Of a stretch of DNA of 64,000 nucleotides, positions 6,449-58,712 are shown one piece after another. How positions within the stretch are numbered: position 1 is the first letter of the stretch; each line of letters starts with the position of its first letter. The notes beneath the pieces are model-generated. The model was not told the DNA's origin, ran no database searches, and saw nothing but the letters and a program-made list of their open reading frames with translations. Position numbers and translations under genes: made by a program. This DNA is from Magnolia sinica (Eukaryota; Streptophyta; Magnoliopsida; Magnoliales; Magnoliaceae). Where the stretch lies: assembly GCF_029962835.1 (NCBI RefSeq), contig NC_080577.1, forward strand, positions 5,518,001 to 5,582,000. The letters are read 5' to 3'.

Positions 6449-6451
<3 letters not shown>

Positions 6452-6566
6452 TTTTGAAGAGGAAATGGGAGGGAGATGAAATCAGTGGAAATGGGAAAAG
6501 GATAAGAATACCCATTGTAGTATATGATTTTACGCCACTAGCTAGCTGGACAGGGAAAAATAAGAG

Positions 6567-15159: not shown

Positions 15160-15162
<3 letters not shown>

Positions 15163-15213
<51 letters not shown>
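15163..15213. repeat. GA microsatellite at the start codon of copy B
   Basis: An uninterrupted (GA)n run of about 50 bases immediately 5' of the ATG at 15159 on the gene strand; counterpart of 6340-6448. Confidence 0.92.
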
Positions 15214-15216
<3 letters not shown>

Positions 15217-15330
15217 TTTTAAAGAGGAAATGGGAGGGAGATGACATCAGTGGAAATGGGAAAAGGACGAGAATACCCTTCATAGTGTATGATTTTGCGC
15301 CACCAGCTAGCTAGACAGGGAGAAAAGGAG

Positions 15331-23031: not shown

Positions 23032-26000
23032 TCCCCCCTCAAACTAATGCGGGTCATCAACAAGTAATAGTTTGCCAACGAGAAATGAGTGACGTGCAGA
23101 AGTTAGGGACTTGGTGAAAATGTTTGCAATCTGATCATGGGATGCAACATGTGGTAGAGAAATGAGCCCAAACTGAAATTTCTCACGGATAAAGTGACAA
23201 TTAACTTCAATATGCTTCGTCTGTTCATGAAAAACCGGGTTAGAGGCAATCTGAATGGCACTGAGATTATCAACATGGAGTGGAGTAGGATTCTGCACAG
23301 GAATGCCGAAGTCGGAAAGAAGTCCACGTAACCAAACAAGCTCACTACACGCAGCAGACATCGCTCGATACTCGGCTTCTGTGCTTGATTTGGAAACAGT
23401 GGCCTGCTTCTTACACTTCCAAGAGATGAGAGAAGTGCAGAGAAAAACACAGTAGCCAGTGGTAGATCTTCGTGTGAGAGCGCAACCAGCCCAATCAGCA
23501 TCCGAATAAGCACAAAGGTCCAGAGTCGCCGTGGAGGAGAAGAACAGTGATCGATCTAGAGTCCCACGTAGGTACCGTATGATGCGTAACACCGTAGTCA
23601 TATGAAGAGTCCGAGGAGCAGATACAAACTGACTGACGACTTGGACAGCATAGGCAATATCAGGCGAGTCATAGTTAAGTAAACCAGACTCCCAACCAAA
23701 CGACGATATAAGTCAGGCTGTGCAAGTAAATCACCATCGTCACGGCCATAATGAATGTTAAGTTCTAAGGGAGTCTGAACTGTTTTCTGATCTGTCAATG
23801 ATGCCAAAGCGAGAAGATCCTTGGCATATTTACGCTGGCTGACCAGGATCCCACGTTTAGAACGTTAAATTTCAAGCCCAAGAAAGTATGTAAGATGGCC
23901 GAGGTCTTTCATCTTGAAGGAGGATTGCAGAACTTCCTTTAAAGCCGAGATACCAGCAGTATCGCTACCAGTCAGTAGGAGGTTGTCAACATAGACCAGA
24001 ACAATGACAATTCCGTGAGCAGTGATGCGCAAAAATAAGGATGGGTCATGACCACTTTGAGTAAAGCCAGCACCCGTAACAACATCGTGAAAACGTTGGA
24101 ACCATGCCCGAGGTGCCTGTTTGAGGCCGTACAGGGCTTTCTTTAGGCAACATACCTTATTGTCAGGGATTAAGGAGCCAGGAGGAGGTTTCAAATACAC
24201 GGTTTCTTGAAGATCTCCATGAAGAAAGGCATTTTTCACATCCATCTGAGCGAGTGGCCATGAGCGAACAGAAGATATAGCCAGAAGGGTACGAACAGTT
24301 TTCATCTTGGACACGGGAGCGAAAGTCTCATCATAATCAATTCCGTATTCCTGTTTGTATCCCTGAGCGACAAGTCGAGCCTTGTATCGATCCAATGATC
24401 CATCAGACTTGAGTTTGACCGAATAAATCTATTTGCTACAAATTAGCTGTTGGTCAGCAGGTCGAGTGACAATGTCTCACGTATGATTATCTTCCAATGC
24501 TGCAAGTTCTTCTGCCATAACCTTCTTCCAACAATCATGAGTGGCTTCCTGAGAGTATGAAGGAGGAATAGAAACGGTATCCAGAGTAGCATTCATGGCA
24601 GACATAGAGCAAATCAACCGATCAGGCGCTCGATGTTCACGAGCGGAACGACGGATCGAGGTAAGTTCGGGATCAGCAACGGGTACAGTAGGTTCGGGTT
24701 GAGTAATAGGTGGTGGATCTATACGTGGTCGACGTGAGTAAACCTGCAACGGACGAGGGAGAGTACTTGAGGCAAACGGAATTTCTGGAAAGGCAGTTAG
24801 ACCGGGAGAGTTTGGAGTGTGCGGAGGAGGAAGAGATGAATGAAAAGCAATGTGCTTAAGAAAAACAACATGTCGTGAAACCCGAACACGACGAGAAACC
24901 GGATCATAACATCGAAAACCCTTCTGAGTTTCCCCAAATCCCAAGTACATATATTTGACTGATTTTGGAGATAGTTTGTTACGTTCACGTGAAGCCAAGT
25001 GAACATAACAGATACAACCAAAAACACGAAATGTGGAATATGCAGGAGGTAAGCCAGTGAGAACAGAGTAAGGAGATTTACTGTTCAGAACTTTGGTTGG
25101 CATCCGGTTAATCAAGTAGACGGAATGTAACATTGCTTCAGCCTAGAAAGAACAAGGAACACTCATAGCTGTCATCAGGGTGTTGGCAGTTTCAACAATA
25201 TGACGATTTTTTCTTTCAGCCACCTCGTTCTGTTGTGGAGTATCAGAACAGGTGGTTTGATGAATAATTTCATGCCCTTGAAGAAATGTACGAAAATCAG
25301 TTGAGAGATATTCCCCCCCTGAGTCAGAGCGGAGAGTTTGACCTGAAACCCGAAATTGAGTCTTCACCATAGAGTGAAATAACTTGAATTTTTCAAAAAC
25401 CTGTGACTTCGATTGCAGAAAGTAAATCCAAGTGTAACGTGTGAAATCATCAATGAATATAACATAGTATCGTAACCCAGAGAGAGACATAATTGGTGAA
25501 GGACCCCAGACATCCGTATGCACAAGTTCAAACATAGAAGATGATTTTGTAGTACTTAGGGAAAATGGAACACACTTACTTTTTGAAAGACAACAGGAAG
25601 AACAAGAATAATCCAAATCATTTTTATTAAGAGAAATATTCCCTAACATGCCAGACGAAATTAACTGAAGTAACCGATCGGAATGTGGATGACCCAGGCG
25701 AAAGTGTCATAGTTTCCACAATTTATTTACCAAAGAAATATCTGATGAAGAAGGAGAAAAGAAACAACGAGCCGGAGTGACAGATGGATCAAAATCCAGC
25801 ACGTACAGACGACCATGCCGCCTACCCCTCCCAAGTACCTTCCCCGTCGCCAGATCCTGCACAAAACAACAGTTGGGAAGAAATATGACTAAGCAGTTAT
25901 TTGATGTGAGTTGACCAACTGAAATTAAATTGGAGGAGAGGTTAGGGACATGAAACACATCACGAAGGGTGAACTGGCGATGAGCAGAAGGAGAGAAAGT

Positions 26001-27501
26001 CAATGATCCAACAGACTGAATAGGTAGTCTAGTGCCATCCGCAGTAGAAATAGCCTGATTGCCGGTGTAGGGACGAATGTCACGAAGATGGGATACAGCA
26101 CCGATCATATGATTGGAAGCACCCGAATCGAAGAACCATGTAGAAGATGGGGATATACCTGACATACCGGCCGCAGAAAGGGCCTGAACGATTTGCTGGA
26201 GCATCACAGGAGTCAACGGAGATGAAAGACCTTCAGCAGAAACAGTAGATGGAGAATCAGTAACAGTCGGCTCAGAAGAAATAGTGGCAGTAGTAGCAGA
26301 AAGAGCACGACCACGGCCACGGCCACGACCACCACGTCCACGGACAGAAGAAGATGCATATGCACGTGTACGACAGTCTTGAATACCATGACCAGTTCGT
26401 CGACAATAAGCGCACCATTCTTTGCATTGAGCGACAACATGACCCACCTTGTTGCAGCCGCGACAGGTTAAAAGAGAGGAGCCACGTGTTGGTGTAGTGG
26501 TGGACACAGCAAGCACCATATCAGATGATCCCGGAGTCGAGGAAGGAAGTAATAAAACTTTCAGTCGTTGTTCCTCAGGCAATAGATCATTAATAACCGA
26601 ATTCAATGAAGGAGTAGGGCTACGGTTCAAGAGAGCAGCTCGACAATGCTCGAATTCAGGACGCAGTTTCATAAGAAATTGGCGAACTTGCGCACTCTCA
26701 CGCATAGTTTGGAAAATCCTAAAGTCATTAGGAAATATTGGATCCATCAAGGCCATCTCAGTCCAAATTGTGACAATTTTAGAATAAAATAATTGAATAC
26801 TGTCGTCACCCTGAGTAAGATTAACGAGATCCTGTTCCAGACGATATGACCGGGCCGCATTACTTTGTTGATAAATTGTCTGAAGATGGTCCCACATTGC
26901 CTTAGCTGTGCGATGAGGTGTGAGGCCAACAGCAATGGACCGATCGACCGAATCGAGAATCCAAGTAATAATCCGTCCATTGTTCATTTCCCAATCAGCC
27001 AATTTATAGGCATCCGTGAAAGTGGGAATAGTAACAGATCCATCAATTAGTCCCCACAAACCACGACCCTTCAGGAAGTTCTGAAAATGGATGGCCCATA
27101 GTGAATAGTTGGTACCATCAAAACTACACCTTGGGGCCTCTGTACGTGATGAGTTCTTGTCCATTGATCGGAATTAATATAAAGCACGCAAAGAGTTGCA
27201 GCAGAAGAATGTTTTAGGTGTACCGTACAGCCGGAGATATCCAACGGGTAGCAGTATCTGGATCTTGGCGGAATAGGAACAGCAACAGGACCTCTGGATC
27301 TGGAAAATGTAGATCCGGCGACGCAGCAGCAACAGCAACAGATTGTCAACAGATCTGGATGGGAGCAACAGATCTGGATGAGGTTGCTGGAACTTTAAGA
27401 GAACGAGCAACAGATCTGGATGAGGTGACCGGGCGACGCTGGATGAGCAGAGGGGCGACGCTGGACGAGCAGTGGTGGTCGGACGGGTGGTCAGACGGGC
27501 A

Positions 27502-27959: not shown

Positions 27960-28889
27960 AGCTCGTGCTGTAGTGCCAGTGAATGCCAGCTACTTTTGCT
28001 GAAATCTTTACACCAGTACCAAAGAAGATGGCCACTGCAGCCATGGAAAGCCTCTCTCCATGTTGAAGCAGCATTCTAGCATACCATTCAAGAAAGAAAT
28101 GACCATAGGGTGTGTTCCAAGTACCATCATCACTTCGGAAGAAGCTTGTATCTTCTGGAGCGTGCGTCAGGCTATCAGCATCGAGAGGATCCGCATTTCC
28201 CCACTCAGGCATCCCAACATTTTGTGCACAGGCATTCAACGAAGCAATCATGTACCGACATGTGAAAGAAGAAACAAGATCGATGCAAAGCAAGGTGTAG
28301 AAGACATGATTTGAATAAATGAGAATATTAACAAAATAGTTCTTCAATGCACAAGAACAGTAGATTAGTGGACGGGAATCCAAATGCAGACGAATCCACT
28401 TGGCTACCTTATCATAGCACCGAAACTCTCCAATTTCCCACGAGTGCCGCCATGACCAGGACAACTTCTCGGAAGGGCGAGAAGGATATCTCAGTTCACC
28501 AGCAGGACCCATCCCAACTTGAATGCCTTGCAAACTAAAGTAACAATCGCTGGTGAAGCCTACATTTGAAATGGTTTGCAACCCATTTGTGCACCCAAAA
28601 TGCAGAATCTGATGAGTTGACGGATAACATCTTACTGTTATGACCACTCCAAGATACTCTCTGAAAGTGTTTCGAAAATTCATCATAAAATCCAAATAGA
28701 CTTTAATAGGAGATCGACCTCTAAGAATGGGCACTTCAATGCATCCCAGGGATATGTATTCCTGGTTTCTTATTCCAAACCTGTCCAAATGAGCCAAATC
28801 CGGTTCCTTGTCCATCTCTTCAAGCACCCATTGAAGAAGAAGGATCCTTTGATGTAGGAAGTGGAAAGGGGGGGCTGGTGGTTTGTGGA

Positions 28890-32952: not shown

Positions 32953-35571
32953 TGCGGAATAGGCCCAAGGATCTGTCTGTGCATGGGACATGGCGAGCAA
33001 GGGTTTAGATAGCGCACCTAGATGAGACGCCACCATGGAAGCCGGATAAGAATACCAGAATTTCTGTAGAGCTTAGGATCTTCCTCTCCTTCACACCCTT
33101 TCTGCAATTCACAAGATGGGACTCGAATTTCTGCCGTGGTGTAGGATCGGGGACCCAGCTCTCTAATATAGAGTTTGTGGAGAGAGAGTTTGAAACCCAT
33201 CACAACTCTCTCTCTCCCACGCTCCACATTGTAGTATCCTAGTTCAGCTCAAACTGCTGTCTGCGTAAGACAGCTATAGCATTCTAGCCCTAGTACGCAG
33301 AGCTGCACAGATAGACTACGCAACGCATCACCTGAAGTGGGGCCCACTAGTCTACTCAATCATCCAGTCCATCTGTATGACAATCCAGACCGTTGATCAG
33401 TGAGGCCCACTAAATAGAGTTCTTACATTCTCCCACTTGGGCCTCATTGAGCAACGTTGATGATAGTCATATAGAATTATTTTGAAAACAAGTTTTGATC
33501 TTTTAAGAAAATATTCAAATGGTTAACCAATGAAAACAGTTGGACAGTATGAGTAATGCTATTCAATCTGGTCCATCAAGATAGTCAGTATCGAAACGCG
33601 GCAGTCATCACAACATTTAATTTAGGCGAAGTGAGTCTAAGCGCGATTACAAATACTTGCAATCTTAACGACATAGATCACGAACTAGGAAATGTGGTAT
33701 AAGGATTACACACTTTAGTGTGATGTTATGTGTCTATCCTTAAGAGGTCTTGAAGCTTTTACATGTCTCTAACGAGACACGACTATAGTTCTACTTACTC
33801 AAAATTTGCGCATATATATAGAGAAGTAGAAATAAATCTTTATATCAAAATCATCCTAACAAACTGTATAAAACGAGATCTCTAAGTGTCTGTGAAAATC
33901 AAAGTACGCTCAACTCCCACTAACTGAAAACATCTGTGGGATCAATGACTCCCATGGATGTTACATGCTCCTGAAATGGCATGATAGGGAGCCCTTTAGT
34001 GAGCGGATCTGCAATCATCTGCTTAGTGTCGATGAATTCCACGGACACTTGATGATTCTGAACCCTTTCTTTTACAACAAGATACTTGATGTCGATGTGC
34101 CTCGACCTTGACGAATGCTTGTTGTTACTAGAGAAGGAAATAGCAGTCGAATTATCGCAAAATATTCTCAATGGTTTCGGGATATGCTCCAGTACCCGCA
34201 AACCTGAGAAGAAACTCTGTAACCATAGTGCCTGATTAGATGCCTCATGGCAGGCAATAAATTCAGCTTCCATAGTGGATGAGACTGTGGTAGATAGTTT
34301 CATGCTTTTCCATGACACAGCTCCTCCCACCATCATGAAGATGTATCCTGAAGTAGACTTCTTAGTATCAACGCAGCCTGCGAAGTCTGCATCTGAATAT
34401 CCGATCAATTCCAATTGATCAGACCTTCTGTATGTGAGTCTGAAGTCTTTCTTTCTCTGAAGATACCATAATGCTTTCTTTGCAGCTATCCAATGTTGCA
34501 TTCCTGGATTAGATAGATATCTTCCCAACATTCCAGTGACAAAGGCAATGTCCGGTCGCGTACAGACTTGAGCATACTGCGTACGGAAATTCTTTCATTC
34601 GATTCTTTTCTAAATCATTCTTTAGACACTGAAATAAACCAAATTTGTCGTCATTCACAATGGGCGACTTTCCTGAAGCACAATTTTGCATGCCATACCT
34701 TTCGAGTACCCTAGTAATATAAGCCCTCTGTGACAAGCTGAGCAGTCCAAGTGTTCTGTCACAGCAAATCTCAATGTCGATGACGTAAGAAGCTTCACCA
34801 AGGTCTTTCATTTGAAACCTTTGAGATAAGAATTTCTTGGTGTCGCTCAACATCCTGGTATCACTGCTAGCTAACAGAATGTCATCAACATACAAAATCA
34901 TCATAACGAACTTACTCCCACTGGTTTTAATGTATATACATTCATCTGCAGTGTTTTCTACAAATCCATATGAAGAAATTACTTCATGAAACTTAAGGTA
35001 TCACTGTCGCGATGCCTGTTTCAACCCATAGATGGACTTCTTAAGTTTGCAAACCAAATGTTCTGAGCCATTAGCTACAAAACCTTTATGCGGAATAGGC
35101 CCACGGATCTGTCTGAGCATGGGACATGGCGAGCAGGGGTTTAGATAGCGTACCTAGATGAGACGCCACCATGGAAGCCGGATAAGAATACCAGAATACC
35201 AGAATTTCTGTAGAGCTTAGGATCTTCCTCTCCTTCACACCCTTTCTGCAATTCACAAGATGGGACTCGAATTTCTGCTGTGGTGTAGGATTGGGGACCC
35301 AGCTCTCTAATATAGAGTTTGTGGAGAGAGAGTTTGAAACCCATCACAACTCTCTCTCTCCCACGCTCCACATTGTAGTATCCTAGTTCAGCTCAAACTG
35401 CTGTCTGCGTAAGACAGCTATAGCATTCTAGCCCTAGTACGCAGAGCTGCACAGATAGACTGCGCAGCGCATCACCTGAAGTGGGGCCCACTGGTCTACT
35501 CAATCATCCAGTCCATCTGTATGACAATCCAAACCGTTGATCAGTGAGGCCCACTAAATAGAGTTCTTACA
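32953..35571 (-). mobile_element. Ty1/copia element, internally deleted
   Basis: LTRs of about 474 bases at 32953-33427 (3') and 35099-35571 (5') begin TGTAAGAACTC and end CCTATTCCGCA on the minus strand. A purine-rich AAGTGGGAGAA precedes the 3' LTR. The inner part keeps only the reverse transcriptase end (YGLKQ-like, ILYVDDILLASSD) and RNase H (DADFAGCVDTKKSTSGY, VSWKSMKLSTTVSSTMEAEF). The 5' LTR abuts this coding part directly, without primer site, gag or integrase. The outer flanks do not match as a duplication. By eye about 11 substitutions separate the LTRs. It is broken and cannot move alone. Confidence 0.88.
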
Positions 35572-35852
35572 GCACATCCCAAGTGGGTTGATAACGTTGT
35601 TATAAAAAATTAAAATTAAAATCACCGAACCCATTATTATGGTTCTTGTAATGGGAATGATCACCTTCCATCATGTTAATAAAACACCTGCTAAGTGACA
35701 GCCATATTTTCAAAATGATGGTCAGTTTCTCAATAATGGCAGAATTATGACTGAATATTTTAAAAAACATAACGGCAGCCACTACAACAGTTGTTAATTC
35801 AGGAACAATCATTTTCAGTTGTGTAATGTAAAGAAATGCCTATTGAATAATG

Positions 35853-36528
35853 GGAAGCGGATAGCATCCTGCCTCTACCTGGACCATAATCCGTCCAGGC
35901 TGGGCTTTGTGGGGTCCACCGTGATGTATGGATTTTATCTATGCCATCCATCCACGTTGAAAGATCATTTTAGGTTATGAACCCAAAAATGAGGCAATGG
36001 GAAGCGGATAGCATCCTGCCCCTACGCGGACCATAATCCATCTAGGCAAGGCTTTGTGGGGTCCACCGTGATGTATGGATTTTATCCAAGCTGTCCATCC
36101 ACTATGAAAGATCATTTTAGTGTATGAACCCAAAAATGAGACAGATCCAAGGCTCAAGTGGACCACAGATTGGGGATTGAATGCTCACCATTAAAAACTT
36201 CTTGGGAGCTGCAGAAGTTGTGGATCAAGGTGATAGTTGTGTTTCCCCTTCATCCAAGTCTATGTGACCTTATGAACAGGTTGGAAGATAAATAAACATC
36301 ACAGTGAGCCCTACAAAGGTTTCAACAATGGGCATCATCATCACCGTTGCTTCCTGTGGTGTAGTCCATTTGACCATTGGATATACTTCGTTTTTGGCCT
36401 ACTATATTAAAATGATTTGGAAAAATGGATGAACGGCGTGGATAAAACCCATACATCACAGAGGACCCCACAGAGCCCCTGCCTGGACCGATGTCCGTCC
36501 AGGCAGGGGCAGGACGCAATCCGCTTCC
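35853..36528. mobile_element. Palindromic Mutator-like MITE with exact 9-bp TSD
   Basis: The termini are GGAAGCGGATAGCATCC and, inverted, GGAAGCGGATTGCGTCC. The flanks are the identical 9-mer TGAATAATG at 35844-35852 and 36529-36537. The right end carries a hairpin (CCTGGACCG...CGTCCAGG). The arms form a long inverted repeat around a loop with TTCATCCAAGTC. The left end is present twice: about 145 bases from 35853 are repeated from 35998. There is no ORF of note. The 9-bp duplication is the mark of the Mutator superfamily. It lies in intron 1 of amylase copy D. Confidence 0.88.
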
Positions 36529-37430
36529 TGAATAATGATTAATGACCCATATTAATTTATAACAAATAGAGAGTTATGTATGGAAGCCATTTCTTTAAAA
36601 CCATGGCAGCAATACAGAATGGATTATAGCACCATTTTCAATGAAAAACACCTACTCCCTTGGGCAAGATGTTCTGTGCTATTCTTTTTTCTTTTTTCTT
36701 TTTTTTATGTTATTCTGTTTCACGGCTGCTTTAGCACCGGCCTGCTGTTACAGGGTCATAACACCGTGTTGAAGACCTGGTAATAGCTATTATTTCAGTT
36801 TGATGGTTTTCAAATATAATGGTGTGATGTTATGGAATATAACGCCACTTCTTGCAAGAAGAATGAAGGCTGATGAATAAAATAAATTTTAATAAATTTT
36901 GTTATTTCACTGAAAAACAATTCAGAAGAGCAAAAAATTGCAGTAAAAATAAAAAAATAAAAAATCAATGTTTCCAAACTCCAATACTCCATGAGCCCCA
37001 CCACAGCTCATATTCCCATTTTCCTGCTTTTTATGTTTTATTAGAATAGATACGACCATGGTAAAACCCATTTGGCCATTAAAAGGTCGTAACCATTCTT
37101 TAGGCCCAGGGTGATAGTTAGAACATTTCTACAGTAATCAGTCCTTGCAATTGGAAGGCCGAATTCAAAAACTTATTGCCATGGGTTCTTGTTCTGGCAT
37201 TGGAGCACAAGGCGGATCAACCTCTCTGAGAGTGAAAGATGAGGCAGTAATTTCAAGAATAGCCTAATATCATATGATCTTTTATCTAGATTGCACGTCT
37301 GTTGAAATGCTGGCACAAGCATGGTAGAATTCAGCTGCAGGATTATCTTCTCACACTAACAATTTGGTAGGCAAGCGAGGGAAGAAGACAGCAAGACGAG
37401 AGACTTGATCATTTCAACGCCAGATTATTT
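36529..37430. other. Intron 1 of copy D, AT-rich, nothing recognised
   Basis: No exon, RNA gene or element could be supported. From about 37430 to 37850 the sequence is again homologous to the exon-1-proximal intron of copies A and B (5390-5800, 14215-14630). Confidence 0.5.
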
Positions 37431-38329
37431 TTTTTTCAAAACAACTAAAAAAAATAAAAAGGAAGAACAACTAAACTACACTCCGGCAAAGTAAGGCAAC
37501 ATGCACTCGATCTAAGCCATCCAAACGGCAGACTCACTATCAATGATGAGGCATAACCCAAATTTTCATACTGATCGGATTCTTCTAACCATCAGATAAG
37601 TGACCATCAAACAGGTTACAGAAAGGGAAAAAAATTACGAGGATCGAAATACAATGGGGAAACGACCATCAATTGCGCAATTAGAATAGTCCGTGCCTGT
37701 GATACTTTGAGCTATGCCCCTCCATGGCGGGGTCCACATTTTGGACAGTAAAGACAACTTCCACATCACAATAATTCAAGAAAGCAATAAACACAATCTC
37801 GTGAACAAGAACCAAAATTCTAAGCAAGAAAGCAAGAGAATGTTGAAATACCAATCGCCGAGCTGTTTCCGGTACTGATGGAAAGCCATCATTGCGAGCA
37901 CGCCCATACTGCTGCGCCAACTGTACAACGTCAGAATACCCGGCCCAATCATAAACTCCGGGAGAATCTCTTTCAACGATCCCTCACCTCGACTACAACG
38001 CCCTCCACGCCACACGACGCTTGTGATCTCAACGAAATCGATAACAGCTGTCGCCGCGTCACCGGCCACAAAGAGTTGAAGATGTCGGGCGGGAGGGTCA
38101 CGAAGATGGACACCGCCTTGCGGGAGGAGTGAGGCTGCGGATGGAAGCCGGGGAGGAAATTGCCGGGAATATCGTCATCGGGAGGATCGGAGCCATCCCC
38201 GCCGGAGGAGGGCTTGGAAGAATAGATGCGTGAAGAGAATGCGAGTCGGTGGCGGAGGGAGGGAATGGTCTTGACTCGGGCGAGTTGGACCGTGCCGGAG
38301 CAAGCCGAGCTGGTGCAGGGAATCGCAAC

Positions 38330-38869
38330 TAGAGCTGTACACGAGTCGAGCCGAGCCGAGTATTGACTCGGCTTGCACTGCCCTTGTCCTACGCGTACTC
38401 GGCTCCACTCGAGCATGAGTTTGAATTTCCCGCTGGTGCTCTACTTGTCCGATCATGCGCAGAAATCGAGCCAAGTTGAGTTCGAGTTTACGAGTCCAAA
38501 TCTGAATTTGAGCCTAATTCAAGTAGGATTTTCAAGCAACAAATTTAGCATATATTAACTGTATTAACATATATTAATAATTTTAACATATATTAACTAT
38601 ATTAACATATATTAACATTTTAGCAATTTTTATATTAACATATATTAACAATTTATTAAAAAAACTACTGATAATAAATCAATACACCATAGTACAAGTC
38701 AAGTACCGAGTTGAGTACGAGTCAAGCACATGAGTCAAGTATCAAGTCAAGTGTTACTCAGCTCGTACTCTAATCGTAATCAAAACGCGTATTAAACTCA
38801 TGTCGAGTCGAGTAATTTTAAATCGAGTCGAGTGAGTAATCAAGTTTACTCGGCTCGTGTACAGCTCTA
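38330..38869. mobile_element. hAT-type MITE in exon 1 of copy D
   Basis: A 540-base element with perfect 16-bp terminal inverted repeats TAGAGCTGTACACGAG / CTCGTGTACAGCTCTA. It is flanked by an 8-bp duplication ATCGCAAC (38322-38329) / ATCACAAC (38870-38877), one base different. An 8-bp duplication with such ends fits the hAT superfamily. The middle holds a run of ACATATATTAA-type repeats (38548-38660). No transposase. It interrupts the transit-peptide codons of amylase copy D. Confidence 0.88.
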
Positions 38870-38994: not shown

Positions 38995-39508
38995 GTGACC
39001 CAACACGACGTAGCTACGCGTATTAACACCACGTAGCTACGGGGTGTCAGGACTCCGTGGAGCCCACCGTGATTTATGTGTTTTATCTACGCCGTCCATA
39101 CGTTTTTCTATATCATTTTACTGTAGTAGCCCAAAACTGAAGCGTATATAAAGCTAAAGTGGACCATACAACAGTAAAGAGTGGGGTTGAACGCGTACCG
39201 TTGAAATCTTCTTAAGAGCCAGATCAACTTTATATTTGATTTTTCCCCTCATCCAGGTCTGTTCGACCTTATGAACAGGTTGGATTACATAAAAACATCG
39301 ATGTGTGCCCTAGGAATGTTTCAACGGTGGACGTCACTATCCCACTGTTTTCCGTAGTATGTTCCACGTGAGCTCTGGATATGCTTCAATTTTGGGCTCA
39401 TGCCCTAATATTATATGGAAAAACGGATGGACGGCGTGGATAAAATACATACGTCACCGTGGCCACAATAGAGTCCCGACATCATGTAGCTACGTCGCAT
39501 TGGGTCAC
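38995..39508. mobile_element. Palindromic MITE, CGTAGCTACG-end variant
   Basis: The core is the shared palindrome (GGAGCCCACCGTGATTTATG ... CGGCGTGGATAAAATACATA). The ends are GTGACCCAACACGACG and its inverted match CGTCGCATTGGGTCAC. The end module contains ACGTAGCTACG twice. The 9-mers CCATTGGTA (38986) and CTGGTGGTA (39509) agree at six of nine positions, a weak duplication. Confidence 0.75.
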
Positions 39509-39555
39509 CTGGTGGTAAGGCATCATCTTTCCCGCCAATATGCCACTTGTGTAGG

Positions 39556-40755
39556 AAATTACAAAGCGGAATGGCTGGTGTACCACACACGGCACACCAG
39601 CGATCTAGTGGTATGTTGACGTCAGCAAGTTCTATGGGTCTCATTACTAGGTATGTGTTATATCCAAACTGTCCATCCATATGGAGAGATAGTCGTAATT
39701 CTTGAGCCGAAAAATAAGATACATCTAAAGATAAAGTGGATTACACTGCAAAATGAAGTGTGGGATTGAACGGTTACCATAGAAACTCTTTTGGAGTCAC
39801 AGAAGTTTTGGATCAATGTCATATTTGCTTTTACACTTCATCCATGTCTTTGTGACCTTATGAATAGATTAGATGGAAAATAAACATCAAGGTGGCCCTA
39901 CAAATGTTTTAAAGGTGAAAATGATTATACCACTGTTATTTGTTTCTTGGTTAAGCTGAGCATTGGGTATGATTTTTTATTTTTCTTTAACTAATGCTAT
40001 AAAACGATCTTCAAAGTGGATGAATAGTGTGGATATAATAAATACATCGTTTTGGAGCCCATGTAACTTTGATCTCCTTTGAATTGACAAGGTCTGGCTA
40101 GTGATGCTGCCACCGGCCATGTGGCTATTGGTCAGTGCTATGTGGACCCACCATGATGCATGTGTTTTATTTAAGCCATCCATCCAATTTGAAAGATAAG
40201 ATAATTTTAAGGCTACACCATGTGATTGAATGTCCACCATTAAAAACCTACCAGGGAACCTCCTAGGGGACACTATAATGGTTATTTGACATCTAACCGG
40301 TTGACCAGGTCATACAGAAGAATAAATAAATAAATTCAGCCAGATCCAAAACTGTCATGGCCCCAAGAAGTTTTTAATGGTGGGCATTCAATCAACACTT
40401 TGTGGTCCACTTGAGATTTGGATCAACCTTATCTTTGTGCTCATTAAACATGAAGCAGCGTTGATAATGACACCCACACCCACTGTTGAAACATTCCAAT
40501 GGCCCACCATGATGGTTAATTGCCATCCAAACTGCTCATAAAGTTACATGGACTTGGATGGAAGGAAAACACAAATATCAGCTTGATCCACAACTTGAGT
40601 GGCCCCGAAGAATTTCTCAACAGTAGGTGTGTTTAATCCCCACTGTGTGGTCCACTTGAGTCCCGGATCTGCCTCATTTTTGGGCTTAGACCCTAAAATG
40701 ATAGGGCAAAATAGATGCACGGTGTGGATAAAACCCGTGATCCCATTCCGTTCGT
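39556..40755. mobile_element. Composite of rearranged palindromic MITE copies
   Basis: Several arms of the family in succession (39620-40070, 40130-40300, 40340-40740), with truncated or inverted joins. The left part has a small hairpin GCTGGTGT...ACACCAGC at about 39571-39601. No clean duplication could be assigned, so the individual boundaries are uncertain. Confidence 0.6.
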
Positions 40756-43014: not shown

Positions 43015-45731
43015 TCAACCGGAAATTGCTCGACTGACAGCCAACTGAGCCCAATCAGCAGATTCTTTAATCAAATGATCATCTGATGATAAGCATTCAT
43101 TTAAGAAGTCTTTGCTTGCAACAGCTTGACTAATCAGAGGACCAGCATTACCGCCAAGCGTGTCAGCAAGATCTCCCAGGACTCCAATTGCAGTCTTAGT
43201 CACAACATCATCCCTGCTAACAAAACAAACAGTGAAGGGAGGAGTCAATAACAGAAACAATACAGGGCATGCAGGAATCAAGACAAAAGCATAGTCATGC
43301 ATTACAGAACTTACATGTCCTTTTCCATGTATAAGCTATCCAAGAACTGAAGGATGTGTGGTGCATAAGGCATCAGTAGCTGAGTCTTTGGGGAGTTCTT
43401 AAAACCTTGGAAAATACCAGAGTATGCTTCAAGGATTCCATTTCTTAGAAGATTGGTGTACTCTGTCATCTCATCATCAGCACCTGATGCATGTGCAGAT
43501 AGCTCTGCAGCACTCTGGAGCATGGGCATGGCATATGTCAAGTACTTCTCGAAGTTCTCTCCTATTGCCAGAGCAATGTCACCAAAGCACGAGAATATAG
43601 GAGGCTTCACAGACCGATGTAGCTGATTACTTGACAAATCCTTCAGCAGTTGTGTCATAATTCCATCACAGTAAGGAAGTATCTTTTCCTCCAGAGCCCT
43701 ACACAAATCCCCAACTACACCAACAGTAATAGCACAGACCTGGTACTCCTCAAAATTTTGGAGGCCCATTTCCAGATAAGGATAGAATTCTTGCATGTAC
43801 TTTGTAAAATCTGCACCAGTTGCATATGCCAGGGCCCCAATGGCAAGCATAGCCTCTTCATGCACTGTGGCACTTCTGCAAGCAAAAACCCTCAAAAAGA
43901 GACCCATGATCTGGTCTGCATACTGCATGAAGACATACTTGGTCGATTCGGCCCCTCCCAACTTCTGTATGATAACCTGCAAGCACCCACAAAGGAGCCC
44001 TTGCAATTCATTCTGCTTCTCCCTCTCATCTGATGACAGCTTCTGTGCTTCAAGAGTCTGGCTGAGCTCCATCATGATAACTGGAACCAGTTGCATGACT
44101 GTAGGAGCCGTCTCATCAGTTGAACACCTAACGACTTCATTCAAAGCCTCATAGGCAGCAGTCCGGAGGCGGGATTCTCCAGCATCTTCTCTGTGGGTCA
44201 CAGTTAGAAGAGCCTGAATGATGTCTTGAAAGAAAGGTGACAACGGGGAAGATGGACCCACGTCTTCATAACCTTGAGCAAGGAAATAGAGAGCCCCACA
44301 TGCCTTCTCAGCAACATTAGGAACATCCTTCATGCTTTGAAGCAAAACCATAAGGATCTGTTGGCAGTTCGCATTGGTGATTATGGGGGTCTCAACAGTT
44401 GAGCCATGAAGGAACTCAAATATTCTTCCAAGGGTCCATGCAGTGGTGTCCTTGACATGATTATTTGGATCTTTTGTCAAGGCTGTAAGCATAAATCCAA
44501 GAGCAACATTGACAATAGGCGTAAGCTTATCTGGGGATGGACCCTCCAAGATTGAACCAAATGCATACGTGGCTGCCTCTCTCTGCCTCCAATCAGGCTT
44601 TGTTATGTTTTCTTCAATGAACGGCATCACAAGGGGGACAATGTCATCCCCGACCGTCCGTGCAACTAAGCCCAAGCAAGTTCCCCCAGCCATTGCAAGA
44701 TTCCAAGCACCTTCATCCTGATCTTGATCCTCTTCCTGTTTAAGGAGCGTCTCCAGTAGCATAGGAACTAGAGCAGGGAGTGCCTGCTTAATAAAGTAAA
44801 AACACGGAATCTCAGAGTCACCACTGAAATCACCTCCGTACTCTTCTAAGATATCGATTTCCTCATCACAGATTGAGCTCCAAAACTCAATAGCCTGAAG
44901 AGCAACAGGCTCTTCGTCCTCCCTCACAGCTTTCGCAGTGATGTTAAATATGTCATGAATGTAGGGTGAAAGCTTCTCATAGTACGTAGATGAAATGGAA
45001 ACCAAACACTCAAATGCTGCTTGCCGTATCTTCACCTCAGGGGACAGAGTTGCCTCGCAAACAACTCTCATGATATAGTCCCGCTCCATTTCGTTTGTGA
45101 AATTCGCCTGAGCAAATCCCAAGGCATTATACAGAGCTCGAGTGGCAGCGAGCCTGACATCAGTGTTTCCTTCAGAAGAGTTCATACCCTGGACTACAGC
45201 TGTAAGTATCTTATTCACATGGTCTTGATCAACAACATCCGGAGACACTTCCTCACATAAATACCCAAGAGTTTCCAGAGTGGCCTGCTTGACATGAGCT
45301 GGAAGTTGGTGTATGTTCCCCAACAGAGATCCTATAAGCTCAGGCCACTGATTGTGTGGCAACTCGATACCTGCGATCTTCGCAATGACTTGGGATGCAG
45401 TAGATCGTGCATCTGGCACAGGAGAAGAAAGGGTCTGCAACAAGCATCCTTTAACCGGAGTCTTCACGGCTGTGTCTAGAGACAACCATCTCTGTACAAG
45501 CTCAAATTTTCTATGCTGCTCCTTGGCATCCAAGGTGTTCTTGAGGATCAAACCTGCTAATTTACGACTATCCACAGGTTTATCGTCATTTGCCAATTCC
45601 CCAGAGAGAGATAACAAAAATCCAGGAAGATTTTGATCCTGAAACTGTTTCAGGTTGTCTTCTGCATGTTTCCGCACAGTACCATCTACTGATTGCGCAT
45701 TCAGAAGAATTTGGGTGACTTCCATTGCCAT
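43015..45731 (-). CDS. KPNB1: Importin subunit beta-1 (karyopherin beta 1)
   Basis: Nuclear import receptor: it binds importin alpha (or cargo directly), docks at FG-nucleoporins and releases cargo on Ran-GTP binding. Coding exons are 43315-45731 and 43213-43015, joined across a short intron (GAC AT|GTAAGT ... TTAGCAG|G GAT), giving 871 residues; the plant family is about 870. The protein starts MAMEVTQILLNAQSVDG, with an importin-beta N-terminal domain at about residues 20-100 (RKLAGLILKNTLDAK). HEAT repeats follow throughout, with the acidic loop EEDQDQDEGAWN in the middle and an end of ESADWAQLAVSRAISG. The frame is open throughout and the splice sites are good. A second ATG two codons on is also possible. 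This is the one clearly intact gene wholly inside the window. Confidence 0.96.
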
Positions 45732-47375
45732 TATGTATCTGTAAAAGACAGCAAAAAAAGTACATGGCTTTCATATAGCAGCCAACTAACGACAGTTTCA
45801 CATAGTATATGGAAAAGAAGCTGCATACAAAAGCATGGTATGGGCCAAATGGCCTACATAGGGTATTAGTGTTCTGAATCCATATTCTAAAAACTCAAAA
45901 TCATTGATAACGATGTTGGGAGCAGATTCTAGAAAGAAGCCAATCAATCAACAATAGAAAACCCTCCAGAAATTGATTCAAGCTAATTTCATGAAAAATT
46001 TTACCAAACCAAAGTAATAATAGGGCATTACAGACACCTTTAAGTATGAAATCAATTGTACAAAAATAACATAGATATTTTATCTTATTAGACAGATCTA
46101 AGCAATCCAACAGAATTAAAAATTGTTCAGAAACAGCAGAGAACAAAGAAATCTCTCAAAAAAACAAAAAAGTCGGCAAATCCTAATACAAGCACAGACA
46201 GAACAATCCATAAAGTTCCTTCTATGCAAACAAAAATACAGTAAATCAAGTACCCATTCATATTTCAGATGAGACAAAGGAAATTTGATAACGACAAAAG
46301 GCCATGCAAATTGTTTTTCTACAGATGTTTTTCTACAGAACAATCAATCTGGGTAAATCATGAATTCAAAAAACCATGGAGTAAAATGGCCATCAATTTT
46401 ATAGTAAGATAAAAATCGTTATACAAATCAAACAGCCATACTAAGAAACAATCCACGAACCAAACAAGACACCCTTCTATAAAACCAACAAACACAGTAA
46501 ACCAAACGTGTGAAACCACTGGAAATCGATTGTCAAGAAGGAAGGCAGATCTAAATATATCAAAAACTTGACTTTTTACTCAATTCTATAACTGAACTAA
46601 CACTCCCGACACATGAATAAATTTTCAATCTGTAACAAATGAACCATGGGAAACAACATAATAGAAAAAACAGAACAAGATTCAATGGAAAAAAAATGCA
46701 CCCTAATTTCGAATACTAAATAAGCATTCATTAAGGACAAGGAAACTAATTCCGTATTCCTAAGCACTAAATGGGGAAAACCCCCAATTCAAAGCAGTAG
46801 CAACATCAAAGGTCAAAACTACATCAACAGAACAAAGAAAACAGATCTAAATACATAAAAATTCGACATTTTCACAAATATCCATCCCAAATACCCCTTC
46901 TAATGCATCGATAAGTTCCGATCAAGAAAATAATCAAAGATGCCAGTCTAAGATTGAAATTACAGCCTCTTCGTAAATATCATGATCGTTCTTCCCATTG
47001 AAACTACAATCCAGATTCAGTGGGGGAAAAAAAAAATTCAAGATCGAAAATAAGGGCATCCGATAACACAAACAAAAACCTAATTTCAAGCTTTGAATCA
47101 CTTGACGATAACTTCAAAAAAAAAAAACTAAAAACAGACGCATCAAAACTACATCAACAGAACAAGAACAGGAGAAATTAAAAACCTTAAATAAAATGAA
47201 ATCCAACTCAAATCCCTTATCAGAAACCACGGATTAGGGTTTGGGATCCGCAAATCGAATCGATAAAGATCGGAAAAAGGGGAGTTGGGGGTACTTACAT
47301 GGATTTCGTAGAAATCAACGACGGAGAGATCTCTAAAAAGCGATCGACGATCGGAGCGAGGAGGCGCGGGGACGA
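45732..47375 (-). other. 5' UTR exon and 1.56-kb leader intron of importin beta
   Basis: A non-coding first exon (about 47375-47299) ends CCAT|GTAAGTACC. The acceptor CTTTTACAG|ATACATA lies at 45739, seven bases before the start codon. The intron (45739-47298) is AT-rich and has no exon-like frame. Long leader introns often raise expression of plant housekeeping genes (known for the class, not shown here). Confidence 0.8.
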
Positions 47376-47849: not shown

Positions 47850-48486
47850 GTGTATCAGTGTCTTCCCTCTCGTTATTATTATCAGGGCCAGCCTTCCGAG
47901 TCCTTCATGGACACGGAAAGCCCGTGTCCTTGATTGGAATCACCCGTATATGTGATTTACAACACCTGAACATCCAAGTTCTTTGGGGTCCCACTTGTTT
48001 TATGTGAAATCCAATCCGTCGATCAGGCGGTAAGACTTCATTAAACCGTACATGAAAAATACCAACCTAATAGAAGTTTGCCATGGGCCACGAAACAATG
48101 TACAACCTAAACCTCTATGTTCAACCGTTGTGCCTCGACTAAGGTTTTAATCAGGCTGATTTTTTTATTTCCTCTGTCTTCATGAGTCACATACGATGAA
48201 TGGCTTTGATGATGTACACGCGACATGGTGGCGCCACAAACAAACCTATGTTTGTTGTCCCATATCCATTGTTTTCTGTGGTGTGGCCCACCTTAGTTAT
48301 GGATATGGCTGATATTTGGCCCCACGATCTAGCATCGAGGAGAGCTCCTGATGGAAGTAACGGATTTTCGTATATAAAATATGGTGGGGCATAGAGAGCT
48401 TGTGTGTTTTATACACTAGGCAAAACCGGTGTTGTAGAGGAATCCGATATGACGGGATCGGACCGTCCATTCGGGGGCTCACTGTT
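47850..48486. other. Intergenic, MITE-like sequence of a second type
   Basis: Contains GGGGTCCCACTTGTTTTATG and GTGGTGTGGCCCACCTTAG, blocks related in style to the palindromic family but without its inverted structure. No gene is seen. Confidence 0.4.
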
Positions 48487-48495
48487 GTTAAAATC

Positions 48496-49014
48496 GGACG
48501 CGGATTTCCTGCAAATGGCTCCTGCGCTGGGATGCTAGGTGGGGGCCACCGTGATGTTTGTGAGATATCCACCCCGTCCATCTGCCCTGAGAGATCATTT
48601 TAGGACGTGACTGAAAATGAGTTGGATCCAAAATTCAAGAGGACCCCACGAGAGGAAAAAGTAGGGATTCGGTGAGCATTGTTGAAACATTTTCATGGTA
48701 AACAAAGTTTAGTACGAGACTAACATTTTGTGTTTTCATTTTATCCCGGTGGGAATGACCTTATAAACAGTTTGGACGGAATATATACATCAAAGTGGGG
48801 CGCAGGAAGGTTTCAACTATAGGAAACTCTTTCCCCTTAGTTCCCTCTAATATGGCCCACTTTGGTTTTGTATCCCCTTATTTCGGCCACATGTCCTAAA
48901 ATGATCTCTCAAAAGGGATGGTCGGGATGGATTTCTCACAAACATCGCGGTGGGCCCACTTAGCATCTTAGCGCAGGAACTTTCTGTGAAAAGCTTTGGC
49001 AGGAAATCGCATCC
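48496..49014. mobile_element. Palindromic Mutator-like MITE with exact 9-bp TSD
   Basis: A 519-base element with ends GGACGCGGATTTCCTGC and, inverted, GGATGCGATTTCCTGCC. It is flanked by the identical 9-mer GTTAAAATC at 48487-48495 and 49015-49023. Long arms: GGGGGCCACCGTGATG ... CATCGCGGTGGGCCCAC. It is the clearest standard-length copy. Confidence 0.9.
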
Positions 49015-49023
49015 GTTAAAATC

Positions 49024-49689: not shown

Positions 49690-50178
49690 CCGGATTAGGT
49701 ACTAAGCCCCCCCCCCCCCCCCCCCCGGACCTGGCTACGAGCTATAGACGGACGGTCCTTGAAAGGGGCTCCGTGGGGCTCACATTAATATATTTTTTTA
49801 AATCCACGCCGTTTATACATTTTAACAGATCATTTTAACACAAGATCCCAAAAGGTAGGAAGATCAAAGGCTTGAGTGTCCCACACCACTGGAAACGGTG
49901 TTGATTGATCGCCTACTGTTGAAAGCTTCTTGGGAATCATAGAAAATTTGGATCAAGGTAGTATTTATGTTTTCACTTTGTGCGGATACGTGTAACCTTA
50001 TGAAAAGACGATGGAAAATAAACACCACGGTACGCCTATAAAGGTTTTGATGGTTGGCAGCACTATCACCGCCGCTTCTTGTTGTGTGGTCCACTTAAGC
50101 CATCGTTACGTCTCCGATGTGGGTTCATTACTAAAATGATCTGTCAAAATAGATGGTGATGTGTAATGAACACATGCA
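49690..50178. mobile_element. Palindromic MITE, right end lost
   Basis: The left end GGCCCGGATTAGGTAC is followed by a run of about 20 C (49707-49726) and the family core (CCGTGGGGCTCACATTAAT ... AATAGATGGTGATGTG). The right terminal module is missing. The sequence continues into an unrelated GAGCT-rich region. Confidence 0.65.
49707..49726. repeat. Poly(C) run
   Basis: About 20 consecutive C inside a palindromic MITE end module. Run length may be affected by sequencing or assembly. Confidence 0.85.
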
Positions 50179-50185
50179 TAATGAT

Positions 50186-52196: not shown

Positions 52197-52368
52197 GGAC
52201 GCGGATTGCCTGCACTTATAGGCTAGGTGGGGCCCACCGTGCTGTTAGTGAGAAATACACTCTGCACATGCAAATTCAAAACTAAAATTTGGCAGTTCAC
52301 CGTTGAAACATTCGTGGGGATGGAGAGGTTTTGTATCTTTTGTGTTTTCAATGGCATATAAACATTAC

Positions 52369-53413
52369 GGAAACGGATTGGCTGGGAACGGATTGGCTAC
52401 TCCCCCTGCCACCAGCCGATTGCTGGTGGTCGGTGCTCTGTGGGCCCCACCATGATGTATGTGTTTCATCTATGCTGTCCATCTATTTTTCCTGATCATT
52501 TTATGGTATGGCACCAAAAATTACATATATCACAATCTCAAGTGGACTACATTACAGAAAAGTGTTGAATGAGTGACGACCATTAAAAACCTTTTGGGGT
52601 CAATAAAAGTTTTGGATCAAGCTGATCTTTATTTTTCCCCTTCATCTGGGCCTGCATGACATAATAAACAGATTGGATGTTAGATAAAAACTAAAGTGGG
52701 TCTTGGGAAGAATGTAATGATGGATATCCAATCATTATTGTTTTCCTATGGTGTGTTCCATGAGATTTATATCTCTCTAATTTTTGGGATCTAGGTACTA
52801 AAATAATCTTTAAAAATGGATGAACGGAATGGATGAAACACGTACATCATGGAGGGGCCCACAGAGCACCGACCATCAGCCTCGGGATTGGGTACTCCCC
52901 TCACACCAGCCAATGCCTGGTGGTCGGTGTTCTGTGGGCTCTACCATGATGTATTTGTTTCATCCATGCCGTCCATATATTTTTCTAGATCATTTTATAG
53001 TATGAGACCAAAAATGAGGTATATCCAAATCTCAAGTGGACCACATTACAGGAAAGAGTGTTGAATGAATTTTGATCATTAAAAACTTTTTTGTGGGCCA
53101 TAAAAATTTTGGATCAAGCTTATTTTTATTTTTTCCTTTCATCTAGGTTTGTATGACCTAATCAACAGATTGGATGTCAAATAAATGGTACATTAGGCCT
53201 TAGGAGGATTTTAATGGTGGATATCTGATTACTATTGTTTTCCTGTGCTGTTTTCTACCTGAAATTTATATCTCTTTCAATTTTGCGATCAAGCCTTAAA
53301 ATGATATCTAAAAATAGATAAATAGAACGAATGAAACACATACATTATGACGGGGCTCACAGACCACATGCCACCAGCCGCTGGGCTAGCAGGGGAGTAG
53401 CCAATCCGTTTCT
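52369..53413. mobile_element. Nested double palindromic MITE with 9-bp TSD
   Basis: It begins GGAAACGGATTGGCT (the first 15 bases are repeated at once) and ends AGCCAATCCGTTTCT. The flanks are AAACATTAC (52360-52368) and AAACATAAC (53414-53422), one base different. It consists of two tandem full cores, about 52400-52868 and 52880-53390. Each has end hairpins built on CACCAGCC...GCTGGTGG. Confidence 0.82.
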
Positions 53414-53574
53414 AAACATAACAGTGTATTCGGGGAGGTTTCAGCTTTCCTGAGGGCGCTTCCCACAACGCGCGAATACACGAGCGCGTGTATACGCGCG
53501 CGCGCATATAATTTACGTTGTACGGCTGGCTTTAGTTTTGAATGCGCTTTATTTTTAAACTGTTCTTTTTAAAA

Positions 53575-54016
53575 GGAAGTAGGTTGCGTCCTACCCCCGC
53601 CCGGTCCATAATCCGTCCGGCTAGGGCTATGTGGGCCCCACTTAATGTAAGGGTTTTATCCATGCCTTCCATCCATATTTACAGATCATTTTAGCATATG
53701 AACCCAAAAATTAAGTAGAAAAAAAATTATCGGTGGATCACAAATTGGGGGTTGAACGCTTACCATAAAAATCTTCAAGTATAAGTTTCAAATTAAGCTG
53801 ATATTTATATTTTTATTTTCACTTCATCCAGGTATACAAGACCTCATGAATAGGTTGGATGGTTAAAAAACATAACGGTGGCCCTTATAAAGGTTTCAAC
53901 GGTGAATGTCATTATTAATGCTACGATGAACGGCGTGGATAAAGTACTTACATCACTGGCCCAAACAGCCTTGGCCGGACGGATTATCGTCTGGGGGTAG
54001 GACTCAATCTGCTTCC
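53575..54016. mobile_element. Second nested palindromic MITE
   Basis: The ends are GGAAGTAGGTTGCGTCC and, inverted, GGAAGCAGATTGAGTCC, with a CCGGTCCATAATCCGTCCGG hairpin module. The same end type occurs at 35853. The flanking 9-mers (TTTTTAAAA, GATTTAACG) agree poorly. Confidence 0.75.
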
Positions 54017-54144
54017 GATTTAACGTGATCTGGTAAAACGGATGGATCAAGTTCATTTCTCATAAACATGACGGTAGGCCCCACCTGGCTGTTGAGCGCA
54101 GGAACTTCCTGCGAAATGGTTTAGCAGCCAGGAAATCCGCGTCC

Positions 54145-54846: not shown

Positions 54847-55313
54847 GGACGCGGATTAGCTAGTGAAGTGACGTCACTGCCCCACCATGATATATGTTTT
54901 GTATCCACCGTTCATTCATTCAGAGAGATCATATTAAGGCATTATCCAAAGAATGTGTCAGATCCAAAGCTCGAGTGGACCCACCACAGAAAACAGTGGG
55001 TTAATGACGTCCATCATTAAAAACTTCTAAAGGCCGCAAAAAGTTTTCGATCAAGCTGATATTTATGTTTTCCATCCTTTCACGTCTGCTTTAACACATT
55101 AACAGGTTGGATTTCAAATAAACGTCATGGTGAGGATTTCAACGGTGGACGTCACTTTTCCCACTGTTTTCTATGGTGGGGTCCACTCCAGATCTGCTTC
55201 ATTCTTTGAATTGAAATAATATCTCTAAAATTGATGAACGGTGTGGATACAACACATACATCATGGTTGGATTCAAATAACTTGGTGACGTCACTTCTAG
55301 CTTATCGGCGTCC
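54847..55313. mobile_element. Palindromic MITE, GTGACGTCAC-end variant
   Basis: The ends are GGACGCGGATTAGCTAGTG and, inverted, GGACGCCGATAAGCTAG. Both end modules carry GTGACGTCAC, itself a perfect palindrome. The flanking 9-mers CCTCTGGGC and CTCTTGGGC are similar, a probable worn duplication. Confidence 0.78.
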
Positions 55314-55440
55314 CTCTTGGGCGAGCCTGGCTGGCAAACCGCTTTTGGCTTTTAAAGCAGTTTCCACGATATTTCCTTTTACCCGGGGTTTCTTGGGTTG
55401 GACTCCAACTTAAGCTCTCATATAATGACTACACACCCAG

Positions 55441-55941
55441 GGAGCGGATCAGGTGCGGCACTTAACGTGGGGCCCACCTTGATGAAATCATACTATATCC
55501 ACGCCGTTCATCAGTTTTTCCGGATCATTTTAGAGTTTGAATCCAGAATAAAGCATATCCAATTCTCAGGTAGACCATACTATAAGAAACAGTGCTGACT
55601 GACCATTAATGGGCCATGAAAGCTTTAGACCAATGTGATATTTGTTTTTCCCCTTCATCCAGGATTATGTGAGTTTATCAACAGGTTTGATGGAAAATAA
55701 ACATTATGGAAGCATCACGGTGGGCGCTAGGAAGTTTTAATGGTAGGGCATTCAATCACCATTATTTCCTATGGTATGGTTTACCTGAGATTTGGATCTT
55801 CTTCAATTTTAGGTTAAAAAGCTAATATAATCCTTAGAAACGGATGGACGGAGTGGATATAGAATACATATATCAAAGTGGGCCCCACTGCATGGGTCGC
55901 ACCATCTTGGGTACGGCTCCGGCCGCACCTAATCCGTTTCC
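55441..55941. mobile_element. Palindromic MITE, GCGGC-end variant
   Basis: The ends are GGAGCGGATCAGGTGCGGC and, inverted, GGAAACGGATTAGGTGCGGC. The core has CGTGGGGCCCACCTTGATG ... CAAAGTGGGCCCCACTG. No matching flanking 9-mer was found. Confidence 0.75.
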
Positions 55942-56556: not shown

Positions 56557-56877
56557 GGACGCGGCTTTGGTGGATACCCAGTCGGTGGATCCCTGACTGT
56601 ACATCCACTCTGTCCATCGATGTTGACAACTCATTTTAGGCATGATTTAAAAAATGAAGCAGATCCAAATCTCAGTTGAGCCACGCCATAGGAAACAGTG
56701 GTGATTGAATACCCACCATTAAAAACCTATCGGAGTCTATTGGAATGTTTATTTGCCATCCAACCCGTTTAAAACGGATGGACAGCGTGGATATAAGTAA
56801 CACATGTCACGGCGGGCCCCATAGTGAAGGATCCACCAACCTCGGTGAATCTTGGGCATCCATTGAAGCCGTGTCGA
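56557..56877. mobile_element. Short palindromic MITE, GGTGGAT-end variant
   Basis: The left end is GGACGCGGCTTTGGTGGAT; inverted from the right is GACACGGCTTCAATGGATG. A GGTGGATCC/GGATCCACC module occurs at both sides. Possible duplication TATTTTTTA / TATTTTTTT. The core is shorter than usual, apparently deleted. Confidence 0.68.
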
Positions 56878-57466: not shown

Positions 57467-57939
57467 GAAATCGGATTGCATACTAAGTTATTCAATATGC
57501 TTATCATACTGTGTAGACCCAATTGGGCCCACCATAAATGTATGTACTCTATCTATGTTGTCCGTCTGCCTTTCCATATAATTTAAGGGGTTGAGCCCAA
57601 AATTATAGCATATCCAAAGATCAAGCAGTTCATACCACAAGAAATAGTGTGAATAATGATTTCCATTGTTGAAACCTTGCTAGGCTCCATGGTGATGCTT
57701 ATTTGTCATGCAACCTATTCATAAGATTATACGGACATGGATAGGGGAAAACATTAAAATAAGTTTGATCCAAAACTTCTATAGCCCTCAAGAAATTCTC
57801 AATAGTAGATGTTCACTTCACACTTTTTCTTATGGTGTGGTCCTTTTGAGCGTTTGATATGCTTCATTTTTAAGCTCAAGGCTTAAAATTATTTATTAAT
57901 ACATTAATTATGGTGAACCTCAGCATGCAATTTGCTTCC
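57467..57939. mobile_element. Palindromic MITE, degraded
   Basis: The left end GAAATCGGATTGCATAC and the inverted right end GGAAGCAAATTGCATGC match at most positions. The flanks GATAAACAT (57458) and TACAAACAT (57940) agree at seven of nine. The arms (TTGGGCCCACCATAAATG; ATTATGGTGAACCTC) are worn. Confidence 0.65.
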
Positions 57940-58277
57940 TACAAACATGGTGTATCTCTTGGCAATCACCTACGTGGTAACAGATTAGTGTTTGGGGTTC
58001 AAAAGTGTGTCAAATAGGTATTTCACCGACCACTTCCAAATATGTTTTTGCCACTACTTAAAGGAGCCACATATGACCCAGTCAAATCCCACTATGTTAA
58101 GGCCTTAGTGTTTAGAGAGGTCCGATCCAATCTACTTCAAAGCCGCGTGGGTCGCTATTAGAGATGTTGTCATCATGGAACATGTTTAAAAGTAGTTCCA
58201 TCAAATGCATATTTGGTCAAATACACTCCCTTGGTCCAGAGCAACATCTCTATGCCACCCAAACAGCTTCCTTCCTG

Positions 58278-58712
58278 TTACGGCGAGCTGTTGACCCTAA
58301 GCTGGGTGGGGCCAAATGCCTACTTTTTTGAGATCCGCTCCATCTATCAATTTCCCTAGCACATGCTAGGACTTGAGCTCAAAATTGAGATAAACCAATA
58401 ACTCAAGCATGCCTTTCCACATGAATTGTGTAATGCACACAGTCACCTTTAAACCTTTCTGCACCCACCTTCATATTTATATCCCATTCAACCCCTTCGT
58501 AAGGTGATTCTCAGTTGGGTGAAGGTATATCACAAATATAAGCCTAATCAAAAACCTTTTTTTGTGACCCATATATAGGATAAACTATGAACATTCAATC
58601 CCCATTCTTTCTTGTGGTGTGGTGCACTTAAATTTGGATTTGAATGGTGGAGTAGATGTGTGACGCTCATATATCACTATGGGCCCCATTGAGCTTATGA
58701 CCTGTTTCGGAG
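58278..58712. mobile_element. Palindromic MITE just upstream of the DTW-type gene
   Basis: The core GGTGGGGCCAAATGCC ... CACTATGGGCCCCATTGAG has loosely matching outer parts. The ends are worn, so the coordinates are approximate. It lies within 300 bases of the start codon at 58990. Confidence 0.6.

Follow-up and report, generated by a model that had tools for sequence, protein, structure and literature searches.

Known Foldback Elements and the Family Described Here

Among plant MITEs, elements of the Mutator type account for 41.5% across 207 genomes in the part of PMC12550479 drawn on here, and TIR-MULEs are characterised, in the passages cited from PMC3903597, by TIRs of 100-500 bp and duplications of 8-11 bp. 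The MuTAnT family of Medicago truncatula is presented in the cited sections of PMC4486113 as a non-coding foldback MULE with a long inverted-repeat hairpin and 9-nt duplications, and the same sections class with the MULEs the foldback group of Arabidopsis FARE1 (Windsor and Waddell 2000), a foldback element in which each end carries long palindromic repeats. The family that is the subject of this report appears to be like MuTAnT in these features, and like FARE1 as far as that description goes. It was found in a 64-kb stretch of DNA (the window), presumed to come from a plant nuclear genome, and it is very probably a non-autonomous foldback MITE of the Mutator (TIR-MULE) type, an assignment made because of the length of its duplications and the structure of its ends.

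Sequence Context

The window contains multiple copies of beta-amylase exons (Glyco_hydro_14) as well as copia retrotransposon domains, pieces with RVT_1 and zf-RVT domains, and an importin beta-1 gene, which lies on the minus strand at 43311-45770 with an open frame of 819 residues. A copia retrotransposon occupies the minus strand at 23865-27173, its gag, integrase and RVT_2 domains falling in separate open frames, and a 272-bp direct repeat (33156-33427 and 35300-35571, 98.5%) flanks a copia-type RVT_2 fragment, of which the two repeats are possibly the LTRs. A duplication of ~4.1 kb (5080-9200 and 13905-17937, 92.7% identity) carries beta-amylase exons together with one copy of the MITE; further partial matches are present at 22134-22853 and 27969-28586, with beta-amylase domains near both, and at 37393-38326. 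A separate inverted-repeat element at 38330-38869, with ends TAGAGCTGTAC and flanks ATCGCAAC/ATCACAAC (7/8, by eye), looks like a hAT-type MITE with an 8-bp duplication, and a paralogous stretch near 6292-6306 is without it.

Copies of the Family

A profile built from nine copies recovers 17 merged stretches, or 8,618 bases (13.5% of the window), and gives no hits in four controls, one of them the window in reverse and the other three Markov sequences. The first-pass annotation had spoken of at least a dozen copies, a figure that this census bears out, the nine seed copies matching by construction. Common to the copies are outward-facing ends that form inverted repeats, mostly starting GGA, and that vary in type (GGACGCGG, GGAAGCGG, GGAAACGG).

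Exact 9-bp repeats had been reported around two copies, and both pairs were found in place: the 519-bp copy at 48496-49014, with ends of type GGACGCGGATTTCC, is bordered by GTTAAAATC on both sides (48487-48495 and 49015-49023), and the 676-bp copy at 35853-36528, whose left end is doubled, by TGAATAATG (35844-35852 and 36529-36537). The third reported pair, with one mismatch, was likewise recovered around a dimeric member at 52369-53413, where AAACATTAC (52360-52368) and AAACATAAC (53414-53422) agree at 8/9 positions. Next in quality is the member at 57467-57939, with a 7/9 duplication (GATAAACAT/TACAAACAT). The flanks of the member at 54847-55313 (CCTCTGGGC/CTCTTGGGC) agree at 6/9 positions ungapped, the remainder being explained, by eye, by a one-base indel; under a rule that places ends without regard to flanks, its right end moves to 55365 and the match falls to 2/9. 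Flank agreement of 5/9 is seen for an older host member at 52197-54144 with GGACGCGGATT ends, for a member nested in it at 53575-54016 (TTTTTAAAA/GATTTAACG), and for a short member with T-rich flanks at 56557-56876, and the member at 55440-55941 has no recognisable duplication (4/9).

The member at 6566-7044, near a beta-amylase exon, has a possible 8/9 duplication (AAAATAAGA/AAGATAAGA) if its end is read as GGGA, a by-eye pick that was left out of the counts; the flank-blind rule gives 3/9 for this copy, placed from 6567 with another right end, and 2/9 for the copy at 15331-15785. These two represent a single insertion spread by the ~4.1-kb duplication, the second lying within the duplicated segment, and the copies of the family are therefore not all independent. 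A paralogous empty site for this insertion was sought, and none was found. The degraded members comprise a cluster at 39016-40738 (39016-39494, 39616-40097, 40112-40444 and 40448-40738, all approximate end points) and those at 49754-50183 and 58277-58694, together with a weak, degraded member at 47980-48399 and a weak, partial one at 19680-19941.

Eleven units of 436-531 bp show 73-83% identity to a consensus that all 11 contributed to building, which amounts to a divergence of ~22%, and the copies are old. With respect to the properties that define MITEs (50-800 bp, non-coding, multi-copy, inverted ends), units measure 320-531 bp and occur in the 17 stretches, the dimer and the copy with the doubled end exceeding this range of unit lengths, and no Pfam match was obtained among the ORFs that overlap family copies. 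Viral contigs scanned with the core pattern of the family yielded no matches. In one open-access collection of papers, six sequence strings of the family were without match, which says little on novelty, and no paper combined at least four of five terms, namely two magnoliid genera, MITE, Mutator and terminal inverted repeat. The core repeat may be widespread in early-branching angiosperms.

The 9-bp Duplication

How unusual the best flanks are can be judged from the window itself, where the positions that match equally well at each element's own spacing, the element counted, number 2 of 63,306 and 2 of 63,463 for the two 9/9 pairs, 20 of 62,937 for the 8/9 pair and 175 of 63,509 for the 7/9 pair; among 56 non-cognate pairs of left and right flanks, the best match is 5/9. 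In a set of eight elements, flank agreement reaches 74% at k=9 against 16-42% at the other values of k from 4 to 15. Addition of the host member gives a nine-element set with 58/81 matches at k=9 (9, 9, 8, 7, 6, 4, 5, 5 and 5 of 9 per element) against a permutation mean of 27.4, a value reached by 1 of 20,000 permutations, as compared with 440 for k=8 and 1,348 for k=10. The ends in these two sets were assigned by eye and by reference to the inverted-repeat motif, once the flanks had been seen, and where left-end alternatives existed (35853/36000, 52369/52384 and 54847/54803) the end judged to be true was retained.

Because the flanks had already been seen when those ends were chosen, a flank-blind test was run on 19 units of the family, with ends placed by motif mismatches alone, the motif itself being derived from the finding. 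When up to three mismatches per end are allowed, both ends are located in 11 of the 19 units, a pair of ends being absent for the other eight, and k=9 gives 59/99 matches, a level attained by none of 5,000 permutations; for each of the remaining lengths between k=6 and k=12 the count is at least 207 of 5,000, this being the figure for k=10, the next best. The outcome is similar with at most two mismatches (7 of 19 units, 40/63 at k=9, 4 of 5,000 permutations, lowest other count 519 at k=12) and with at most four (16 of 19 units, 68/144, 0 of 5,000, lowest other count 130 at k=8). The 9-bp signal is carried by four elements, which among the 11 units match at 9, 9, 8 and 7 positions; the other seven, at or below 5/9, a level that non-cognate pairs also reach, are decayed or have misjudged ends. 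The duplications of these best four elements are 78% A+T, against 58% in the window.

A scan with tighter requirements on the paired ends (TIR of at least 9/14, first two bases equal, duplication with at most one mismatch) gives hits for 2 of 18 copies, those at 35853 (9/9) and 48496 (9/9, plus an overlapping 7/7); the copy at 52369 is missed because its right end starts AG. Among 60 random places, the same scan produces 7-bp hits at two, an 8-bp hit at one and 9-bp hits at none.

One rival explanation is that the family belongs to another cut-and-paste superfamily (hAT, P or Merlin), its duplication having been misread as 9 bp. Target duplications measure 8 bp in hAT and P elements and 8-9 bp in Merlin, so that a 9-bp Merlin duplication would also be compatible with the observed length; the end motifs by themselves name no superfamily, and no transposase was seen among the 75 ORFs of at least 100 aa in the window. 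On the other hand, the exact pairs are 9 bp long with GGA at both ends, and in the flank-blind test k=8 yields 33/88 matches, a level that 274 of 5,000 permutations attain, compared with none for k=9. The hAT-like inverted repeat at 38330-38869 displays an 8-bp pattern, which indicates that lengths of 8 and 9 are separable within this window. Taken together, these observations make membership in another superfamily improbable.

For a Mutator-type element, by comparison, the expected duplication is of 8-11 bp, usually 9, and here k=9 is the sole peak, with 2 of 11 units exact and 4 of 11 within two mismatches. Mobilisation was presumably effected by a MULE transposase; no MULE domain was detected at E 0.01 among all 75 stop-to-stop ORFs of at least 100 aa in the window, and such an enzyme would be encoded elsewhere in the genome. 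It would bind ends of the type GGA(A/C)(A/G)CGGATT, the element would be joined to its target at staggered cuts 9 bp apart, and repair would then create the duplications. The family would have been active long ago, its copies having decayed since.

Palindromic Structure and Fold

The family had been described as nearly fully palindromic, and this holds: an alignment of the 48496 copy with its reverse complement extends to 469 columns at 65%, with one ungapped arm pair of 68 nt at 84%, and for the consensus such an alignment covers the full length at 75%. The 65% of this single copy lies below the likeness of >75% used for TIR-MULEs in the passages cited from PMC3903597. Arms of over 200 bases around a loop of about 90 had also been proposed, a description that is overstated for the 48496 copy but that fits the consensus better. 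In the minimum-energy fold of this copy, the segment from 48496 to ~48612 pairs with ~48885-49014 in a strong symmetric stem that takes up the outermost ~115-130 bases of either arm, and pairing is irregular across the inner ~270 bases. The foldback character is evident from fold z-scores of -14.75 for the 48496 copy (100 shuffles) and -14.11 for the 35853 copy (20 shuffles).

Hairpins of such stability evoke the question of whether the elements are now of use to the host, for instance as precursors of small RNAs, and MITE-derived miRNAs, many of them from Mutator families, are reported in the cited part of PMC12550479. However, Rfam gave no matches at the gathering threshold across the whole window, and the ~22% divergence of the copies from their consensus also speaks against such a role, which we regard as quite improbable. 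Explaining the family as a foldback MITE requires no host function.

Nested, Tandem and Doubled Copies

Several members are composite. In the 35853 copy, the first 147 bp are present in tandem (35853-35999, and then from 36000 onward), and the member at 52369-53413 consists of two direct-repeat units (~52384-52882 and ~52883-53413) that are joined via a shortened middle end, with the duplication lying outside the whole. This dimer and the member at 53575-54016 both interrupt the host member at 52197-54144. The host was rejoined in silico by removal of each nested element and one copy of its duplication, and the product gives one alignment with the 48496 copy (joined positions 271-443, 70% identity, E 8e-20) that crosses the second junction (position 324), although the flanks of the second nested element agree at no more than 5/9. 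No BLAST match covers the first junction, which falls in the poorly conserved middle. The alignment across the second junction can be read, from sequence comparison, as an intra-family argument for an empty site.

The possibility that these are non-mobile palindromes, generated by inverted segmental duplication or replication errors and flanked by repeats through chance, is very remote. In its favour, the doubled and tandem units (35853, 52369-53413) and the crowded 39016-40738 region indicate that local rearrangement also occurs, but dispersed copies with common ends, 9-bp flanks above permutation and the one presumed empty site argue against it.

A weaker point concerns the 5' arm of the consensus (~47-323), which is itself a faint palindrome centred near 185, with a score of 53 versus 15.6 ± 3.2; for the 3' part, the corresponding score is 15 versus 14.2 ± 3.3. 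Of 11 single copies, 3 have a 5' part that outscores every one of 60 shuffles. Of 12 split-half consensuses, the halves of which overlap between repeats, six have a 5' part that outscores every one of 100 shuffles, and none has such a 3' part. That the 5' arm is itself an inner palindrome is thus a possibility. It is tentatively suggested, as a somewhat doubtful extension, that the element is a palindrome of smaller palindromes, and that the 5' arm, the doubled end of the 35853 copy and the 52369 dimer may record stepwise growth by inverted and tandem duplication of ends. MuTAnT is likewise described as 'four similar segments' in the cited sections of PMC4486113, and the pattern of inner palindromes may therefore be already known.

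Significance and Comparison with Known Systems

The reading of a Mutator-derived foldback MITE, put forward in the first-pass annotation, is supported by the fact that k=9 alone stands out, by the inverted, mostly GGA ends, the fold-back, the absence of Pfam matches in overlapping ORFs and the nesting, a combination that in plants is indicative of Mutator-like elements (PMC3903597, PMC4486113). The kind of element is real but ordinary, the family being very probably a further member of the known foldback Mutator-type MITEs, and the accepted view of how foldback Mutator elements work is unchanged by it. What it adds is a dense, old family of this type in a plant region with beta-amylase copies and importin beta-1, and its modular copies (doubled end, dimer and nested members) would offer good material for work on how foldback MULEs arise.

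With regard to individual systems, the TIR-MULEs of maize and rice resemble the family in their duplications of 8-11 bp and probably in their long TIRs, and the doubled left end of the 35853 copy is similar to a subgroup with tandem TIRs (two consecutive TIRs); in the passages cited from PMC3903597, however, those elements were selected by transposase sequence, whereas the family shows none within the window. Tm1 of root-knot nematodes is also similar, being a Mutator/Foldback family that includes MITE-like members and whose duplications are mostly of 9 bp, but differs in its animal host and in TIRs made of ~14-bp tandem repeats (PMC3169594, in the part cited). MuTAnT, as portrayed in the cited sections of PMC4486113, is mostly 200-300 bp long, as opposed to units of ~320-530 bp here; it targets (TA)n microsatellites, whereas flanks of TA repeats are absent, by eye, at the four best sites of the family; it has distal GGGG/CCCC stretches in place of GGA(A/C)(A/G)CGGATT ends; and it has a known putative autonomous partner, whereas none was seen for the family within the window. 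On the best reading, and as far as those sections describe MuTAnT, the family is close to it in design.
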